DNA from: Gemmatimonadota bacterium
GTDB lineage: Bacteria; Gemmatimonadota; Gemmatimonadetes; Longimicrobiales; Gaopeijiaceae
Reading direction: 5' to 3'
Assembly (NCBI GenBank): GCA_030428885.1
Contig: JAUIEJ010000004.1
Coordinates: forward strand, 124,001-188,000
Length of the DNA: 64,000 nt
Shown here: piece by piece, positions 23,488-31,871 of the stretch
How positions within the stretch are numbered: the stretch's first letter is position 1
How the letters are laid out: every line of letters starts with the position of its first letter
Position numbers and translations under genes: made by a program
The notes under the pieces: model-generated
The model's input: only the letters and a program-made list of their open reading frames with translations
The model's database searches: none
What the model was told of the DNA's origin: nothing

Positions 23488-23652
23488 GGGGGGGCGAGAT
23501 ACGGGAACGCGGGGGGGGGGTGCCCGCAAGCTAGGGTCGGATGGTGCACCGCACCACCTGAGTCCCCTCTACCGCGCGCACACGCCCGGGAAGCGGGATC
23601 ATCCGGCTCGGAACGGTAGATGAACGGGGACCCCGTCCCGTTAAATCTGACT

Positions 23653-23675
23653 TGTGGGTGGGATTTTTCCCCACA
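23653..23675. promoter_or_regulatory. Inverted repeat in the nos upstream region
   Basis: TGTGGG and CCCACA are perfect inverted arms around an 11-nt T-rich spacer. It is in the 291-bp gap between the phosphatase gene and the first Rrf2 gene, a region clearly AT-richer than its surroundings. It could be an operator or a hairpin. No FNR/Dnr-like TTGAT-N4-ATCAA site is visible. Confidence 0.35.
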
Positions 23676-23714
23676 GCGATCTCGGGAGTTCATCCGACAC
23701 CGGAAAGCTAATTC

Positions 23715-23734
23715 GGACCTTAGTGTCCTATTAA
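23715..23734 (+). promoter_or_regulatory. Possible Rrf2 operator overlapping a -10-like TATTAA
   Basis: GGAC-N6-GTCC (23715-23728) is an inverted repeat, followed at once by TATTAA (23729-23734). It lies 45 bp before the Rrf2 ATG, so a repressor bound here could block transcription of the whole nos operon. No good -35 hexamer accompanies it, so the promoter call is tentative. Confidence 0.35.
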
Positions 23735-23778
23735 GACCACGACGGGGGCGTGAACCCCGGGGCCGGAGAGGACCGAAC

Positions 23779-24213
23779 ATGGTGTCACAGACCGGAATCT
23801 ACGCACTCCAAGCCGTGCTTCTGCTGGCCCGCAGATCCGACGGCAGTCCCCTCTCTGCCGCGGCCATCGCCCAGGAGCTCGACCTCCCCGCGGACTATCT
23901 CGCAAAGACCCTGCGGAGGCTGCGGGTGGACGGAGTGGTGTCGTCGTCACGAGGGGCCCACGGAGGCTACCGGTTGGCGTGCCCGGCCGAGGATCTCTCC
24001 CTGGCCCGGGTCCTGGATCCCTTCGAGGAGACCCGTCCGCGGCGGGTCTGCCTCATGGGGGGCCGATGCGATCCTGCCCACCCCTGCTCCGCCCACGACC
24101 GCTGGTCCACCGTGACCCACTCCGCCCGGCGGATCCTCGAGGACACGTCCGTGGCGGACCTCCTCCACGACGACCGACCGACCCTCACCCTGCGTACCGG
24201 AACCGACTCATGA
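23779..24213 (+). CDS. Rrf2-family Fe-S transcription regulator, first gene of the nos operon
   Basis: This 144-residue winged-helix regulator has the Rrf2 layout: TGIYALQAVLLLARR, a recognition helix region (LPADYLAKTLRRLRVDGVVSS), the wing SRGAHGGYRL, and three cysteines C91, C97 and C103 for an iron-sulfur cluster. NsrR/IscR relatives sense nitric oxide or cluster status, which fits control of N2O reduction. The ATG at 23779 has GGAGAGGA upstream. Its stop overlaps the cytochrome start (ATGA), so it is cotranscribed with nos genes and may repress its own operon. Confidence 0.92.
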   Translation: MVSQTGIYALQAVLLLARRSDGSPLSAAAIAQELDLPADYLAKTLRRLRVDGVVSSSRGAHGGYRLACPAEDLSLARVLDPFEETRPRRVCLMGGRCDPAHPCSAHDRWSTVTHSARRILEDTSVADLLHDDRPTLTLRTGTDS

Positions 24214-24752
24214 CCTCCGCATTCGATCCCCGTCCACGGACGCCACTCTCCTTCGTGCTCCTCGCCGCCGCGGCCCTCGCGGCGTGCGGAGGCACACCCG
24301 ATGGCGACGGCGCGGCGGTGGCCGACGCCGGCTCCGCGCCCTCGACCTCGAACTCCGACGCCGAACTCACGGCGGTGGAGCTGGAGCAGGGCATCGGTCC
24401 GGTCCGCGACCTGAACCTCGAGGGGGTCGACCCGGCCCTGGCCGAGGCAGGTGAGGCCGCCTTCACCCAGAAATGTTCGGCCTGCCACAAGGTGGAGGAA
24501 CGCTACGTGGGCCCCCGCCTCGGCACGGTCCTGAGCCGCCGCCGCCCCGAATTCGTCATGAACATGGTCCTGAACGCCAACGAGATGGTGAAGCGCCATC
24601 CGGTGGTGAAGGAGCTCCTGGGCCAGTTCTACACGCCCATGCCCGTCCAGGTGACCGACCCCGACGAGGCCCGGGCGATCCTCGAGTACCTCCGGTCGGT
24701 CCAGACCGATTCCACCGCCTCGTCTCCGGCCGATCCGGCCGGCGATCGCTGA
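24210..24752 (+). CDS. Lipoprotein c-type cytochrome, candidate electron donor to NosZ
   Basis: This 180-residue predicted lipoprotein (ALAACGG, lipobox LAAC) has an acidic linker and a class-I cytochrome domain. The haem motif is CSACH (C89, C92, H93), and a distal Met in YTPMPVQV is the likely sixth ligand. Small cytochromes of this kind are typical of clade II nos clusters and would carry electrons from the quinol pool to NosZ. The start overlaps the Rrf2 stop, and nosZ begins 32 bp downstream. Confidence 0.88.
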   Translation: MTSAFDPRPRTPLSFVLLAAAALAACGGTPDGDGAAVADAGSAPSTSNSDAELTAVELEQGIGPVRDLNLEGVDPALAEAGEAAFTQKCSACHKVEERYVGPRLGTVLSRRRPEFVMNMVLNANEMVKRHPVVKELLGQFYTPMPVQVTDPDEARAILEYLRSVQTDSTASSPADPAGDR

Positions 24753-24784: not shown

Positions 24785-26770
24785 ATGTCCACGTCCAAGC
24801 GCCTTTTCACCCTGACCGGAGTCGGCCTGGCTCTCGCCAGCGTGGGCGCCTACGCCTGTTCCAGCGGCGGCGACACCCCGTTGGGCTCCGCCGACCTCGC
24901 CGACGCCGCTCGCCAGGTGTACGTCGCCCCGGGCGAGTACGACGAGTTCTACGCCTTCATGTCGGGCGGCTTCAGCGGCAACCTCACGGTCATGGGGCTT
25001 CCCTCGGGGCGCCTGCTGAAGACCGTCCCCGTCTTCAGCCAGTTCCCCGAGAACGGGTGGGGATACGCCGAAGAGACCACGGCCATGCTTGAAACCAGCC
25101 ACGGCTTCCTTCCGTGGGACGACGCCCACCACCCCGAGTTGTCCATGACCGACGGGGTGCCCGACGGTCGCTGGATCTTCATCAACGGCAACAACACGCC
25201 CCGGGTGGCGCGGATCGATCTCTCCACCTTCGAGACCACCGAGATCGTGGAGATCCCCAATTCGGCGGGGAACCACGGCTCGCCCTTCATCACCCCCAAC
25301 TCCGACTACCTGGTGGCCACCACGCGCTTCAGCGTGCCCGTGCCCAACCGGGACATGCCCATCGAGGAGTACCGGGGAAACTTCAAGGGCATGCTGAGCT
25401 TCATCCGGGCCAACGAGCCGGGCAACATGCACGTGGCCTTCCAGGTGCTGGTGCCCGGGTACAACTACGACCTGGCCCACGCCGGCAAGGGACCGTCCGA
25501 CGGCTGGATGTTCTTCACCTCGTACAACTCCGAGGAGGAGCACACGCTGCTGGAGATCAACGCGTCCCGGAAGGACAAGGACTTCGTGGCCGCCGTGAAC
25601 TACCGGCGGGCCGAGCAGTGCATCGCCGACGGAGCCGGCCGCGACATGGCGACGAGCTACCGCCACAACCTCATGGGTGACGACCACATCGCCCGGTCCA
25701 ACGAGGTGACGTCGGTGAAGGTCATCGAGGCCGCCGACTGCTCCGACATGATCTACTTCCTGCCCACGCCGAAGTCGCCCCACGGCGTCGACGTCGATCC
25801 CACGGGCCAATACATCGTGGCCGGCGGGAAGCTGGCCACGGTGATCCCCGTGCACTCGTTCGCGAAGATGCAGGACGCCATCGCCGCCCAGGACTTCGAG
25901 ACGGTCATCGACGGCATCCCGGTCCTCACCTACGAGTCGGTCATCGCCGGCGAGGTGGAGAACGCCGGACTGGGGCCGCTCCACACCGAGTTCGACGGCA
26001 ACGGCTACGCCTACACCACGGCCTTCATCTCGTCGGAGATCGTGAAGTGGGAGATCGGCACCTGGCAGGTCGTGGACCGCATCGACGTCTACTACTCGGT
26101 GGGCCACCTCATGATTCCCGGGGGCGACAGCCGAGAGCCCGCAGGGAAGTACCTGGTGGCGCTCAACAAGATCACCAAGGACCGCTACCTGCCCACGGGA
26201 CCCGAGCTGGCCCACGCGGCCCAGCTCATCGACATCAGCGGCGATCGCATGCGGCTGCTCCTGGACTTCCCCACCCAGGGTGAGCCCCACTACGCCCAGG
26301 CCATCTCCGCCGACCTGATCCGGGACCGGCAGGTGCAGTTCTTCACCCTCGACGAAAACACCAACCCGTACGCGGCCAGGAGCGAGGCCGAGGCCCGGGT
26401 CGAGCGGGACGGCAACGACGTCCACGTCTACATGACGGCGATCCGCAGCCACTTCGCCCCCGACAACATCGAGGGGATCCGGGTGGGCGACACCGTCTAC
26501 TTCCACGTCACCAACCTCGAGCAGGACTGGGACGTGCCCCACGGCTTCGCGGCCTTCGGCGCCACCAACGCCGAACTCCTGGTCATGCCGGGTCAGACCC
26601 GCACCCTGAAGTGGGAGCCCCGGAGCCCGGGAATCTACCCCATCTACTGCACGGACTTCTGCTCGGCGCTCCACCAGGAGATGCAGGGCTACGTGCGGGT
26701 GTCGGATCCGGCGGCCGGCACGCCCCTCCGCTGGGGCACCGGCGGCAGTTGGAGCACCCCGCAGAACTGA
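24785..26770 (+). CDS. nosZ: Nitrous-oxide reductase, clade II (Sec-dependent)
   Basis: NosZ reduces N2O to N2 in the periplasm. This 661-residue protein has an N-terminal seven-bladed propeller with CuZ histidines (H115-H116 in DDAHHPE, others in GNHGSP, SPHGVD, GPLHTEF, GEPHYAQ). Its C-terminal cupredoxin domain has the CuA set: H586 (VPHGF) and C622-x3-C626-x3-H630-x2-M633 (CTDFCSALHQEM). The signal lacks the twin-arginine motif of clade I and looks Sec-type. The signal ends AYAC-SSGG, which could be an atypical lipobox, so a membrane-tethered enzyme is possible. The ATG at 24785 has AGGAG upstream. A stable hairpin follows the stop. Confidence 0.98.
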   Translation: MSTSKRLFTLTGVGLALASVGAYACSSGGDTPLGSADLADAARQVYVAPGEYDEFYAFMSGGFSGNLTVMGLPSGRLLKTVPVFSQFPENGWGYAEETTAMLETSHGFLPWDDAHHPELSMTDGVPDGRWIFINGNNTPRVARIDLSTFETTEIVEIPNSAGNHGSPFITPNSDYLVATTRFSVPVPNRDMPIEEYRGNFKGMLSFIRANEPGNMHVAFQVLVPGYNYDLAHAGKGPSDGWMFFTSYNSEEEHTLLEINASRKDKDFVAAVNYRRAEQCIADGAGRDMATSYRHNLMGDDHIARSNEVTSVKVIEAADCSDMIYFLPTPKSPHGVDVDPTGQYIVAGGKLATVIPVHSFAKMQDAIAAQDFETVIDGIPVLTYESVIAGEVENAGLGPLHTEFDGNGYAYTTAFISSEIVKWEIGTWQVVDRIDVYYSVGHLMIPGGDSREPAGKYLVALNKITKDRYLPTGPELAHAAQLIDISGDRMRLLLDFPTQGEPHYAQAISADLIRDRQVQFFTLDENTNPYAARSEAEARVERDGNDVHVYMTAIRSHFAPDNIEGIRVGDTVYFHVTNLEQDWDVPHGFAAFGATNAELLVMPGQTRTLKWEPRSPGIYPIYCTDFCSALHQEMQGYVRVSDPAAGTPLRWGTGGSWSTPQN

Positions 26771-26857: not shown

Positions 26858-27985
26858 ATGATGACGCGTGCGAGCCGGATCCTGGTTCTGGTGGCCTCCC
26901 TGGCCCTGGTCCTGGTCTACCTGCTCCCCATCTGGGTCATCGACCTCGAGGCGCCCCAGTATCCCGAGGGCCTCGGCATGGTGATCCACATCGATGACAT
27001 CGCCGGTCAGAAGCCCAACGACCTGAACAACATCAACAACCTGAACCACTACATCGGCATGAAGCGGATCGAGCCCGAGTCGATCCCCGAACTCGCCGTG
27101 ATGCCCTGGCTCGTGGGACTCCTCATGGCCGGGGGTCTCCTCGCCGCCGCCGTCGGTCGCCGGCGCCTGCTGTACGGGTGGATCGCCACCTATGTCGTGG
27201 TGGCCGTGGTGGGCCTCGCCGACTTCTACAAGTGGGAGTACGACTACGGCCACAACCTCGACGAGGAGAACGCCATCATCAAAGTGCCGGGCATGAACTA
27301 TCAGCCGCCCCTCATCGGCTCGAAGCAGCTCCTGAACTTCCGGGCCCACTCGTGGCCCGGGGCCGGCGGCTGGATCCTCATCGGGGTGTCGGTGGTGGGC
27401 TTGGGGGTAGCGGTGGCCGAGCGCCGACGCGCCCGGAGCGCACGCCTCGACGGGCGGTCCCCCAGCGCCCCCGCCCTGCGCCACGTGGCCCTCGGGCTGC
27501 TGGGAACCGCCACCGTGGGTGCAGCGGCCTGCGGAGCGCCCGGTCCCCGCCCGGCCCGGATCGGCGACGACACCTGCACGCGCTGCCTCATGAACGTCAT
27601 GGACGAGAACTCCGTGGCCGAGGCCGTCACCTCCACGGGCGTGGTCCACGTCTTCGATTCCATCGAGTGCATGGCGGCCTGGTTGGAGGGCGACGGCAGC
27701 GACCTCTCCATCCACTCCGTGTGGGTCACCGACCGGGCCCGGCCCGGACAGTTCATTCCCGCCGAGGAGGCCCACTATCTGGCCAGCGACGGCCTCCCGT
27801 CTCCCATGGGCCTGGGGCTGTCGGCCTGGGCCGAGGCACCGAATCGGGCCGCCGCCCGAGACGAGCACGGCGGCGAGGCGTTGGATTGGGCCGGCGTGCG
27901 AGCCTTCGTCGCCCGGCGGTGGCCCGACGGCGCCACCGGCATGGGGATGGGTCACGGCGGACACGGCCAGGAGATACGGCCGTGA
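26858..27985 (+). CDS. Fusion of a four-helix nos membrane protein (NosB-like) with copper chaperone NosL
   Basis: The 375-residue product has two parts. Residues 1-~190 carry four membrane helices (LVLVASLALVLVYLLP, WLVGLLMAGGLLAAAVG, GWIATYVVVAVVGLADFY, GWILIGVSVVGLGVAVA) and a periplasmic loop of about 60 residues, like the membrane protein often found between nosZ and nosD in clade II clusters. After a fifth hydrophobic stretch ending in AAAC, residues ~230-375 resemble NosL, with a CTRCLM motif (C240, C243, M245) in place of the usual CxxCGM. NosL delivers Cu(I) to NosZ. No stop or frameshift separates the halves, although a GTG near 27484 could allow internal initiation of NosL as a lipoprotein. 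The ATG at 26858 has CGAGGA upstream. The next start overlaps its stop (GTGA). Confidence 0.82.
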   Translation: MMTRASRILVLVASLALVLVYLLPIWVIDLEAPQYPEGLGMVIHIDDIAGQKPNDLNNINNLNHYIGMKRIEPESIPELAVMPWLVGLLMAGGLLAAAVGRRRLLYGWIATYVVVAVVGLADFYKWEYDYGHNLDEENAIIKVPGMNYQPPLIGSKQLLNFRAHSWPGAGGWILIGVSVVGLGVAVAERRRARSARLDGRSPSAPALRHVALGLLGTATVGAAACGAPGPRPARIGDDTCTRCLMNVMDENSVAEAVTSTGVVHVFDSIECMAAWLEGDGSDLSIHSVWVTDRARPGQFIPAEEAHYLASDGLPSPMGLGLSAWAEAPNRAAARDEHGGEALDWAGVRAFVARRWPDGATGMGMGHGGHGQEIRP

Positions 27986-29223
27986 CCCTCGCCGCCCTGG
28001 CCCTCGGGGCCGTAGTCGCCGTGCCCGCCGACACCCTTCGGGTGGGACCCGATGCCCCCTTCCCCACCGTGGGGGCCGCCGTGGACGCCGCCCCCGCCCA
28101 CGCCACGATCCGCGTGGCGCCGGGCGTCTACCGGGAGTCCACCGTCATCCTCGATCGCCCCCTGACCCTGGTGGGTGAGCCCGGGGCGATCCTGGACGGC
28201 GAGGGCGAGCGGGGCCTGGTGGTGGTGACGGCCGACTCGGTGACGGTCACCGGCCTCACCTTCCGCAGCACCGGGCTGTCGTTCACCGACGACCGGGCCG
28301 CCGTCCTGGTGGATCAGGCCCGGTTCTGCCGCATCGAGAACAACCGGTTCGAGCAGACCTTCTTCGGAGTCTACCTGGCCAACACCGGCGACTGTGTCGT
28401 GGCTGACAACGTTCTGGAGACCGAGTCGGAGCGGGAGACCCGGGGCGGCAACGGCATCCACCTCTGGTACAGCAAGGGCATCGAGATCCGGGGCAACCGG
28501 GTAAAGGGACACCGGGACGGCATCTACTTCGAGTTCGTGGAAGACGCCCGGGTGGTGAACAACGAATCCAGGGAGAACCTGCGCTACGGCCTCCACTTCA
28601 TGTTCTCCGACAGTTGCACCTACCGGGACAATCGGTTCGTGGAGAACGGAGCGGGGGTGGCGGTCATGTATTCCCGGGACGTGCTCATGACGGGCAACGA
28701 CTTCGACCGGAACCGGGGGACCGCGGCCTTCGGCCTGCTCCTCAAGGACATCACCGACTCCCGCATCGAGGCCAATCGGTTCCGGGACAACAGCGTCGCC
28801 ATCCACGCCGAGGGATCCAACCGGCTCCAGGTCGTGGGCAACGACTTCCTTGCCAACGGGTGGGCCGTCCAGCTCATGGCCAACTCCGAAGACGCCGCCT
28901 TCGAGGGCAACAACTTCGTGGGCAACACCTTCGACGTGGCCACCAACAGCCGTCGCGCCTACAGCACCTTCTCCGGCAACTACTGGGACCGCTACGACGG
29001 CTGGGACCTGGACCACGACGGGGTGGGCGACGTGGCCCACCGCCCCGTGCGCCTCTTCGCCTTCCTGGTGCAGCGCAACCGGCCCACCCTGGTGCTCCAC
29101 CGGAGCCTGGTCGTGGGGCTTCTGGACCTGGCCGAGCGGGTGTTCCCCCTCCTCACCCCCGACAACCTGGTGGACGAGCGCCCCTCTCTCGCTCCTCTCG
29201 CCACCGCATGGAGGCCGTCGTGA
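27982..29223 (+). CDS. nosD: Nitrous-oxide reductase maturation protein NosD
   Basis: This 413-residue periplasmic protein has a short signal (LAALALGAVVAVPAD) and then a right-handed parallel beta-helix of pectate-lyase-like repeats (ENNRFEQTFFGVYLANT, GNRVKGHRDGIYFEF, ENLRYGLHFMFSD, GNDFLANGWAVQLMAN). The YWDRYDGWDLDHDGVGD segment is characteristic. NosD works with the NosFY transporter in building the copper centres of NosZ. The GTG start overlaps the preceding stop (GTGA), and the gene ends over the nosF start. Confidence 0.95.
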   Translation: MTLAALALGAVVAVPADTLRVGPDAPFPTVGAAVDAAPAHATIRVAPGVYRESTVILDRPLTLVGEPGAILDGEGERGLVVVTADSVTVTGLTFRSTGLSFTDDRAAVLVDQARFCRIENNRFEQTFFGVYLANTGDCVVADNVLETESERETRGGNGIHLWYSKGIEIRGNRVKGHRDGIYFEFVEDARVVNNESRENLRYGLHFMFSDSCTYRDNRFVENGAGVAVMYSRDVLMTGNDFDRNRGTAAFGLLLKDITDSRIEANRFRDNSVAIHAEGSNRLQVVGNDFLANGWAVQLMANSEDAAFEGNNFVGNTFDVATNSRRAYSTFSGNYWDRYDGWDLDHDGVGDVAHRPVRLFAFLVQRNRPTLVLHRSLVVGLLDLAERVFPLLTPDNLVDERPSLAPLATAWRPS

Positions 29224-29987
29224 CCCGCGCCACCCCCCTCCCCTCCCCCACCCTGCGCGTCGCGGACATCCGAAAGCGGTACGGCGCCCTGGACGTGCTG
29301 CGGGGCGTGGACCTGAGCCCCGCCGCCGGCCGGGTGACCGCCGTCCTGGGCCCCAACGGGGCGGGAAAGACGACGCTCCTCAAGACGATCCTCGGGCTGG
29401 TGCGCCCCGACCACGGCGAGGTGCTCATCGACGGCGCCGCGGCGGGCACGGACGCCTCGGTGCGCCACGCCATCGGCTACATGCCCCAACTGCCGCGGTT
29501 TCCCGGCAACCTCACCCCCCGGGAGCTCACCTCCATGCTGGACGACCTCCGGGCCTTCCGGGGCGTGCCGGACGAGGAACTGGTGGAGGCGTTCGGCCTG
29601 GCGCCCGAATACGACAAGCCGATCCGGGCCCTCTCCGGAGGCACGCGCCAGAAGGTCAACGCGGCCCTGGCCTTCCGGTACCGGGCCCCGATCCTGGTCC
29701 TGGACGAACCCACGGCCAGCCTCGACCCCGTGGCGGCCCGCGTTCTCAAGGAGAAGGTGCGGCGGGAACGGGCGGAGGGGCGCATGGTCCTCCTGACATC
29801 CCACGACCTGGGACAGGTCCAGGCCCTGGCCGACGATATCGTCCTCCTCCTGGACGGTCGGGTGGCCTTCCGCGGGTCCCTGACCGGCCTGCTGACGACC
29901 ACCGGCCAGGCCGACCTCGAAGGCGCCATCGCCACCCTCATGCAACACGACGCACCCCTCCCTTTCGACCGTGAGGAGGTGGCCTGA
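29220..29987 (+). CDS. nosF: Nos ABC transporter ATP-binding protein NosF
   Basis: This 255-residue ATPase powers the NosDFY complex that supports copper-centre assembly in NosZ. It has Walker A (GPNGAGKTT), a Q-loop (GYMPQLPRF), the ABC signature (LSGGTRQKV, with T in place of Q/M), Walker B (ILVLDEPTASLD) and the H-loop (LLTSHDLGQV). I prefer the GTG at 29220, which overlaps the nosD stop (GTGA) and has GGAGG 5 bases upstream. An ATG at 29208 is an in-frame alternative adding four residues. Its TGA overlaps the nosY ATG. Confidence 0.95.
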   Translation: MTRATPLPSPTLRVADIRKRYGALDVLRGVDLSPAAGRVTAVLGPNGAGKTTLLKTILGLVRPDHGEVLIDGAAAGTDASVRHAIGYMPQLPRFPGNLTPRELTSMLDDLRAFRGVPDEELVEAFGLAPEYDKPIRALSGGTRQKVNAALAFRYRAPILVLDEPTASLDPVAARVLKEKVRRERAEGRMVLLTSHDLGQVQALADDIVLLLDGRVAFRGSLTGLLTTTGQADLEGAIATLMQHDAPLPFDREEVA

Positions 29988-30778
29988 TGAGCGCCACGCT
30001 CCGGGCGATCCTGGCCCATACGATTCGCAACCAACTTCGGGGCCGGGCCGTCCCGGGGTACGCCGCCTTCTTCTTCGCCGCGACCACGGGACTGCTCCAG
30101 TTCGGCGGCGGCCCCACTCGAACCCTCCCGTCCCTGGCCAGCGTCATCCTCCTCGTGGTGCCTCTGGTGACCCTGGTGATCGGTACGGTAGGCTTCTACG
30201 ACGGGCGGGAGTTCACCGAACTCCTCCTGTCCCATCCGGTGTCCCGCACGCGCCTCTTCATGGCCCACTACCTGGGCCTGGTGCTGCCCCTGGGGGCGGC
30301 CTTCGCCGTAGGTACGGGGCTCCCCCTGGTCACGGCCGGCCTGGACTCGGCCACGTGGGCGCCGGCGCTGCTCACCGTGGCGGGCGGCCTGCTCCTCACC
30401 GGCGTCTTCGGAGCGTTGGCGATCCTGGTGGCCACATCGGTGGGCACCGCCGCCCGGGGACTCGCCACGGCGCTGCTGGTGTGGCTCGGACTCACGGTGT
30501 TGTACGACGGGGTCGTGCTGATGGGCGCCCAGGCCTTCTCGGCGTATCCCCTGGAGCGGCCTCTCCTGGCGGCCATGCTCCTCAACCCCGTGGACCTGGC
30601 CCGGGTGATGGTCCTCATGGCGCTGGACGCTCCGGCGCTCCTGGGCTACACCGGGGCCGTCTTCCAGGACTTCTTCGGCACGGCCGCGGGCGCACTGGTA
30701 GCGGCGGGGTCGCTGGCGCTGTGGATCGGAGTGCCCGTGGCCCTGGCGGCTCGGCGGTTCCGGCGCATGGACTTCTAG
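29987..30778 (+). CDS. nosY: Nos ABC transporter permease NosY
   Basis: This 263-residue inner-membrane protein has about six helices (around ILLVVPLVTLVIGTVGFYDG, YLGLVLPLGAAFAVGTGLP, LLTVAGGLLLTGVFGALAIL, LLVWLGLTVLYDGVVL). The cytoplasmic FTELLLSHPVSRTRLF loop is typical of ABC-2 permeases of the NosY type. It pairs with NosF. The start overlaps the nosF stop (TGATG). It is the last gene of the operon, and its end overlaps the convergent Rrf2 gene by 4 bp. Confidence 0.95.
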   Translation: MSATLRAILAHTIRNQLRGRAVPGYAAFFFAATTGLLQFGGGPTRTLPSLASVILLVVPLVTLVIGTVGFYDGREFTELLLSHPVSRTRLFMAHYLGLVLPLGAAFAVGTGLPLVTAGLDSATWAPALLTVAGGLLLTGVFGALAILVATSVGTAARGLATALLVWLGLTVLYDGVVLMGAQAFSAYPLERPLLAAMLLNPVDLARVMVLMALDAPALLGYTGAVFQDFFGTAAGALVAAGSLALWIGVPVALAARRFRRMDF

Positions 30779-31176
30779 GAAGGGGGCGACCCCAGGACGT
30801 CGGCCACCGTGCGGTTCTGGAAGAAGTGGATGGCGGGCGCGCTGGCTTCCCGCCAGGCCGTGTGGACGGGGCACCCACCCACGTCGGTGCAGGTGCCCCG
30901 CCCCAGGAGGCACTGGCGTTCGGCACCCATGCCGTCGAAGTGCCGGACCACGTCCAGAAGCCGCATCCGGTCCGGAGGCGTGGCGAGTCGAACCCCCCCG
31001 TTGCGCCCCCGCTCGCTCACCAGCACGCCCTCGTGGGCCAGGGTATTGAGGATCTTGGCCAGGTAGGTCGAGGGGACATCGAGCGCAGCGGCCACGGCGG
31101 CGGCCGACACCGGTCCTTCGTGGGCCGCGATGTGGAGCACCGCGTTGAGGGCGTATCCCGCCGTTCGGGTAACCAC
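30775..31176 (-). CDS. Second Rrf2-family Fe-S regulator (NsrR-like)
   Basis: This 133-residue regulator begins VVTRTAGYALNAVLHIAAH and carries the Rrf2 helix-turn-helix (VPSTYLAKILNTLAHEGVLVSERGRNGGVRLA). Its cysteines C89, C96 and C102 are placed like the NsrR cluster ligands, and the protein is close in plan to the first Rrf2 gene but clearly not identical. It stands convergent at the end of the nos operon, overlapping nosY by 4 bp, so read-through could produce antisense RNA against nosY. The start is a GTG at 31176 with no strong Shine-Dalgarno sequence; no ATG is available upstream in this frame. Confidence 0.9.
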   Translation of the reverse strand: MVTRTAGYALNAVLHIAAHEGPVSAAAVAAALDVPSTYLAKILNTLAHEGVLVSERGRNGGVRLATPPDRMRLLDVVRHFDGMGAERQCLLGRGTCTDVGGCPVHTAWREASAPAIHFFQNRTVADVLGSPPS

Positions 31177-31235
31177 GCGTCGGCGTCCGGAGAGAGCGGT
31201 GAAGAGGATCGGGAGGGGCGTGTCGGAAGATAGGC

Positions 31236-31247
31236 GACCTCGAGGTC
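31236..31247. promoter_or_regulatory. 12-bp palindrome between divergent Rrf2 and DinB genes
   Basis: GACCTCGAGGTC is a perfect palindrome in the 119-bp divergent gap. Palindromes of this size are expected by chance several times in a window of this length, so its placement is the only reason to list it. Confidence 0.25.
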
Positions 31248-31295
31248 CGAGCCAGAGCGCGGACCCCGCAGGCCCGCCCGGGAGTACTCGGGGCC

Positions 31296-31871
31296 ATGAC
31301 AACTCCTCCCCGCCCCGGCGTGCCGGGCACCCCCGGCGAACTGATCCACGGGCTCGACGCCCAGACCGACGAACTGGTGTCACTGCTCCGGGCCCTGGAC
31401 GACCCCCGGGTGATCCGCCGGCCGGCGGAGGGAAAGTGGGCGGTCATCGAACACGTGGACCATCTCGTGAAGGTCAACGCCCGCTACGCCGACGCCCTGG
31501 GAGACGCCCTGAACCGGGGCTGGACCGCCGGAAAGACGGGCGCCGGCCCCTTCCGCGGCAGCGTCGTGGGCCGCTTCTTCGCCCGCTCCATGGAGCCCCC
31601 GGTCCGGAAGCGCATCAAGACCATGAAGGCCATGGAGCCCGGTACGGCGCTGGAGATCGACGCCACCCGGGCCGCCTTCGAAGACGCCCAGAATCGCATC
31701 CGGGAGCTCCTCGCCCGGGCGGAGAGCGACGGCCTCGACCTGGACGGCATCCGCATGGGCTCGCCCTTCCTCCCCCTGGTGCGGGCCCCCGTCTCCAGTT
31801 GGTTCGCCGTGGTCACGGCCCACACACGGCGCCACATCTGGCTGATCCGGGAGACGCTGGAGCAGGTCTGA
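31296..31871 (+). CDS. DinB-like four-helix metal-binding protein
   Basis: This 191-residue protein shows the DinB/YfiT-type four-helix bundle: LIHGLDAQTDELVSLLRAL, then KWAVIEHVDHLVKVN with the first histidines, and a distal TAHTRRHIWLIRETLEQ supplying the other ligand histidines. Such proteins often bind nickel or zinc and act in thiol-transfer or stress reactions; none can be assigned here. The ATG at 31296 is divergent from the second Rrf2 gene. It ends 59 bp before the acylase start. Confidence 0.8.
   Translation: MTTPPRPGVPGTPGELIHGLDAQTDELVSLLRALDDPRVIRRPAEGKWAVIEHVDHLVKVNARYADALGDALNRGWTAGKTGAGPFRGSVVGRFFARSMEPPVRKRIKTMKAMEPGTALEIDATRAAFEDAQNRIRELLARAESDGLDLDGIRMGSPFLPLVRAPVSSWFAVVTAHTRRHIWLIRETLEQV

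Follow-up and report, generated by a model that had tools for sequence, protein, structure and literature searches.

Conserved Internal Lipoprotein Signals Suggest That NosB-NosL Fusions Are Polyproteins Cut into Two Proteins

Introduction

A fusion of NosB to NosL has already been reported in Dyadobacter fermentans and Flavobacterium azooxidireducens (Hein 2017 and van Spanning 2011, cited in PMC9697520). As in the locus described here, NosB and NosL are encoded in one frame located between nosZ and nosD within a clade II cluster. The present fusion, unlike those, is found in Gemmatimonadota. The published fusion is described as multidomain, and neither retention of a lipoprotein signal nor recurrent origin was found mentioned for it. 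Separate clade II NosB and NosL proteins, such as those of Gemmatirosa and Hymenobacter, share with the fusion the domains, their order and the spacing between the lipobox and the CxxCxM motif, but they are encoded by two genes that usually overlap or lie a few codons apart. Clade II NosL is defined by a CXXCXM motif, and two NosL cysteines, the one that carries the lipid anchor and one in CXM, are conserved across clades (PMC6530538). The NosL proteins of P. stutzeri (7osf, 7znq) and S. denitrificans (7og7) have the same fold as the NosL analyzed here (Z 15-17). Unlike the fused NosL, they are stand-alone lipoproteins.

FbcH of Bradyrhizobium is a cytochrome b-c1 polyprotein that is cut at an internal signal. 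It resembles the fusion in that a polytopic membrane protein is followed by an exported protein, with the signal lying inside a single precursor. However, the enzyme that cuts FbcH is signal peptidase I, while the site in the NosB-NosL protein is of the lipoprotein (Lsp) type. We know of no demonstrated action of Lsp on a signal located after four membrane helices. Literature searches returned nothing on point for FbcH or for internal Lsp-type lipoprotein signals; few subscription journals were covered, so the lack of prior accounts of internal Lsp sites, or of the conserved signal at the junction, is weak evidence of novelty. The portions of PMC10924467, PMC5837995 and PMC9360617 that were consulted describe no such internal lipoprotein signal. 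Here we describe a NosB-NosL fusion gene, nosBL, found in a 64,000-nucleotide stretch of a Gemmatimonadota genome (the window), and compare it with fused and separate relatives.

Results and Discussion

The nosBL Gene and Its Cluster

The features of nosBL and its surroundings are listed in Table 1. The frame is open from an ATG to a TGA over 375 codons, is preceded by the Shine-Dalgarno-like sequence GAGGA, and holds both domains without interruption between nosZ and nosD of a compact clade II nos cluster. An earlier note on this DNA had recognized one continuous frame for a four-helix nos membrane protein and NosL, and the open reading frame, the PF05573 match, the NosB signatures and an AlphaFold2 model all agree with it.

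Table 1. Features of nosBL and of the surrounding nos cluster (positions in the window; aa, residues of the nosBL product).
Feature	Position	Strand	Basis
c-type cytochrome, precedes nosZ	24210..24752	+	PF00034
nosZ, Sec-dependent clade II nitrous-oxide reductase	24785..26770	+	TIGR04246, 923 bits, cut-off 625
nosBL, putative NosB-NosL polyprotein in a single frame, 375 aa, 40.1 kDa	26858..27985	+	sequence, relatives, Pfam
NosB domain, aa 1-199	26858..27454	+	AlphaFold pLDDT 94 (domain alone); signature stretches LNHYIGM, YGHN
Basic cytoplasmic stretch ERRRARSARLDGRSPSAP, aa 188-205, n-region of the internal signal	27419..27472	+	sequence
Internal lipoprotein signal: hydrophobic helix aa 206-223, lipobox AAAC ending in Cys225	27473..27532	+	model, conservation
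NosL domain, aa 226-354	27533..27919	+	PF05573; VIA Z to solved NosL
CTRCLM, clade II NosL CXXCXM motif (C240, C243, M245)	27575..27592	+	sequence, alignment
Disordered C-terminal tail with GMGMGHGGHG	27920..27982	+	AlphaFold model, sequence
nosD, GTG start overlapping the nosBL stop by 4 bases	27982..29223	+	TIGR04247
nosF, ABC ATPase	29208..29987	+	PF00005
nosY, ABC permease	29987..30778	+	PF12679

A sequencing error that hides a stop codon had been named as what would overturn this reading, and an assembly error concealing a stop codon or a frameshift could be suspected, as some related genes differ from nosBL by one in-frame stop. Nonetheless, the same uninterrupted frame was found in five relatives, one of the same genus (G075) and four others of the same family (G189, G370, G251 and G187). 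Since these genomes were assembled separately, the fusion is not a sequencing error. Furthermore, the length of the linker varies among relatives and the frame is still kept. An artefact was rejected as a very remote prospect.

Two genes for Rrf2-family regulators flank the cluster, at 23620-24213 (+ strand) and 30775-31383 (- strand). Both proteins have cysteine-containing C-terminal parts, and NO- or redox-sensing control of the nos cluster is possible.

The NosB Half

On a Hymenobacter plasmid, the gene immediately downstream of nosZ encodes a protein with 49% identity to the N-terminal half of the product, and in other phyla this half is matched by the product of the gene that separates nosZ from nosL. 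The N-terminal half is a polytopic membrane protein encoded beside a clade II nosZ, and it has both LNHYIGM and YGHN, the two signature stretches described for NosB (PMC9697520). Pfam has no family for this half, and NCBIfam has none for the whole NosB-NosL protein.

AlphaFold places the NosB helices at residues 4-21, 78-99, 102-132 and 169-198, and both periplasmic loops contain beta strands. When the window protein was modeled with 36 fused relatives as input to AlphaFold2 (pLDDT 86), the four NosB helices were followed by a fifth helix, residues 206-223, and then by Cys225 and NosL. Judging from the charges that follow them, the second and fourth helices would end on the cytoplasmic side. 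On the model and this charge pattern, the fifth helix would run outward (N-in/C-out), which fits the orientation required of a signal.

The model of NosB alone (pLDDT 94) may resemble the claudin fold, which is marked by four helices and an extracellular beta sheet. All of the best 50 PDB rows in a structural comparison (VIA) were TARP or related AMPA-receptor subunits, claudin, DUOXA1, GARLH or designed claudin, with 5-11% identity and Z values of 9-11, too low to be trusted for helical bundles. Several of these claudin-like matches serve membrane complexes as auxiliary or maturation subunits. A claudin-like fold by itself demonstrates no NosB function.

The NosL Half

Residues 237-347 match PF05573 (E 8.6e-8, 33 bits versus a curated cut-off of 24). 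The NosL part superimposes on S. denitrificans NosL (7og7) over 125 residues with a Z of 17.4 and an rmsd of 2.0, and on P. stutzeri NosL (7osf, 7osg, 7osj and 7znq) with a Z of about 15.6 (VIA). The motif CTRCLM occupies residues 240-245, and both cysteines that are conserved across NosL clades are present in the nosBL product. The positions given in the earlier note for the motif cysteines, C240 and C243, were correct. Its view of CTRCLM as a departure from CxxCGM was not borne out, because CXXCXM is the clade II norm. Of the 151 relatives that carry this motif, 140 have K, R or H as its fifth residue, six have L and only one has G, and the idea of an unusual motif was dropped.

No other NosL gene was found in this genome. 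A second NosL doing the real work was thus discarded; nosBL supplies the sole NosL. By analogy with known NosL proteins, the NosL of nosBL would bind Cu(I) and deliver copper for the assembly of NosZ. The HGGH sequence in the C-terminal tail recurs in four fused relatives of the same family (L003, L004, L015 and L033), and the GMGMGHGGHG segment is possibly an extra copper-binding tail.

Fused and Separate Genes Among Relatives

The earlier note had proposed comparing related nos clusters for separate versus fused genes. A search of 395 Gemmatimonadota genomes, 132 of which had matches, followed by classification of the loci by script, identified 24 loci with nosB and nosL in one frame and 56 with two frames. 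In the split loci the nosL start is usually near the nosB stop, and in some pairs the two genes share a frame and are separated by just one stop. A second set, chosen by similarity and hence no census, was obtained by scanning genome contigs with a Hymenobacter NosB seed. It included 36 fused loci, 42 split loci and five without an adjacent nosL, mostly from Bacteroidota, with a few from Kapabacteria and Ignavibacteria and one from Verrucomicrobiales. Overall, 60 of 158 adjacent nosB-nosL pairs are fused and 98 are two genes. The rarity implied at the outset does not hold, and a unique fusion was rejected: the arrangement is common and was already in print.

A quick maximum-likelihood tree of the 158 loci was built from an alignment from which the junction was left out. 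The distribution of fused and split states needs 23 changes on this tree, at least 13 of them forced by well-supported branches. Parsimony with midpoint rooting gave about 16 fusions and seven separations. These numbers are approximate, since the tree was built quickly and the choice of root determines which way the changes run. Branches in the fused state add up to about 15 substitutions per site, and parsimony assigned zero losses of the junction cysteine to them. From these sequences we propose that the fusion arose repeatedly by loss of the short boundary between nosB and nosL.

A Complete Lipoprotein Signal at the Junction

The earlier note had pointed to a hydrophobic stretch ending in a cysteine at the junction, and both the model and the alignment confirm it (helix 206-223 and Cys225, codon 27530-27532). 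The sequence TVGAAAC, residues 219-225, completes a signal of the kind expected of a NosL lipoprotein, here in an internal position. A hydrophobic stretch followed by a cysteine with S, A or G at -1 was found in all 60 fused proteins, 24 from Gemmatimonadota and 36 mostly from Bacteroidota; the script that picked the cysteine favored S, A or G at -1, but 50 of the 60 junctions hold a single cysteine and thus offered only one. Positions -12 to -3 are nearly free of charge and are preceded by basic residues. In 60/60 fusions the internal n-, h- and lipobox regions are complete and under selection. The same lipobox pattern is present in 97 of 98 separate NosL proteins, and the distance from this cysteine to CxxCxM is 14-15 residues in most fused and most split proteins.

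Across 37 aligned fused proteins the junction has a single invariant column, C225, and the other invariant positions of the NosL half include C240, C243, M245, C271 and M317. Other cysteines occur at a frequency of 0.3% per residue. When aligned through the fused-family profile, C225 falls on the lipobox cysteine of NosL from P. stutzeri, a protein deposited as a lipoprotein. L is found at -3 in 27 of the 60 fused junctions. The lipobox of the nosBL product, AAAC, is rather weak: it has A instead of L at this position, a trait shared by seven of the 60 fused and 19 of the 97 split proteins.

The presence of a complete signal in every fused junction indicates that the product is probably cut into two proteins. 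We consider it probable that the nosBL product is a polyprotein in which Lgt lipidates the internal signal and Lsp then cuts it; the genome encodes both enzymes. It is also likely, though stated with slightly more reserve, that the NosB-NosL fusions of several phyla are Lsp-cut polyproteins of repeated origin in which the signal, located behind four helices, was never lost.

The earlier note had instead regarded NosL as permanently fixed to NosB. In that case the protein would stay whole, with the fifth helix as a plain anchor and NosL working beside NosB. The single frame and the lack of a conserved internal start are compatible with such a tether, a fifth helix would, according to the model, put NosL correctly in the periplasm, and the published authors name the product a multidomain fusion protein (PMC9697520). 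However, a plain anchor needs no invariant cysteine with only S, A or G at -1, and the near-constant spacing between this cysteine and CxxCxM persists through many independent fusions. A permanent tether is accordingly unlikely, and the complete signal, invariant in 60/60 junctions, points to a cut.

The protein could also be lipidated and left uncut, if Lsp could not reach Cys225, so that the lipid and the fifth helix would both hold NosL. This arrangement would account for the invariant cysteine, and Lgt acts ahead of Lsp; but the S, A or G at -1 in all 60 proteins also fits an Lsp cut site. To our knowledge, no prolipoprotein of this type has been described that is stable without being cut, and we regard this outcome as improbable.

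Lipidation of the junction cysteine had been suggested in the earlier note, by way of internal initiation. The complete and conserved signal supports the lipidation, and the proposed route to it fared less well. If ribosomes also started inside the frame, a separate and normally processed NosL would be made, which would account for the conservation of the lipobox, and the window does have GTG codons at 27395, 27413 and 27485 and a TTG at 27401 before the signal. None of these four codons has a ribosome-binding site, in contrast to the starts of nosZ, nosB, nosD and nosY. When the stretch 14-45 codons before the cysteine was scanned, an ATG was present in only five of 24 fused genes of the phylum versus 43 of 55 split ones, and 15 of the 60 fused genes had no ATG, GTG or TTG there. 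A start with a ribosome-binding site was found in three of 24 fused genes, no more than in NosB control stretches (26%). Production of NosL from a second start would require that start codons be kept; since they are not, internal initiation is not supported as a conserved mechanism and has a low probability.

Proposed Processing of the Polyprotein

In the processing that we favor, NosB would cross the membrane four times and end on the cytoplasmic side, as the model and the charge pattern suggest. The basic linker and the fifth helix would be the unaltered signal of a NosL lipoprotein, now internal, as homology and conservation indicate. Sec would export the NosL part, Lgt would attach diacylglycerol to Cys225, and Lsp would cut before this residue. 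The cut would leave NosB with the old signal helix as its fifth helix (224 residues, 24.2 kDa) and would release a lipid-anchored NosL of 151 residues and 15.9 kDa. Known NosL and lipoprotein biology suggests that the lipidated NosL would then deliver Cu(I) for the assembly of NosZ with NosDFY. The use of one frame would provide equal amounts of NosB and NosL, inserted at the same place, and may be one step past the overlapping, probably translation-coupled genes of the relatives.

If the precursor is cut in two, the argument for a role of NosB in copper handling on the grounds that it is fused to NosL loses force, and the annotation of these genes as encoding a two-domain protein is misleading. 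The fusions would also offer, in many independent natural replicates, a test of whether Lgt and Lsp can process a signal that lies inside a multi-helix protein.

Divergent NosB Genes

For most of the divergent NosB proteins of deeper Gemmatimonadota families (L105-L123), no nosL was detected in the roughly 1.5 kb downstream. In seven other loci (L050, L081, L087, L089, L097, L102 and L103) NosB is fused to a degenerate NosL without CxxCxM. These proteins lack SPM and most of them have D-P-[YF]-C; the lipobox cysteine is still present. For L102 and L103 a separate canonical NosL was not found within the stretch fetched. The other five (L050, L081, L087, L089 and L097) each have a separate canonical NosL gene on the same strand, lying either upstream or downstream. 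Judging from their sequences, the fusions to a degenerate NosL look like a duplication with division of labor.
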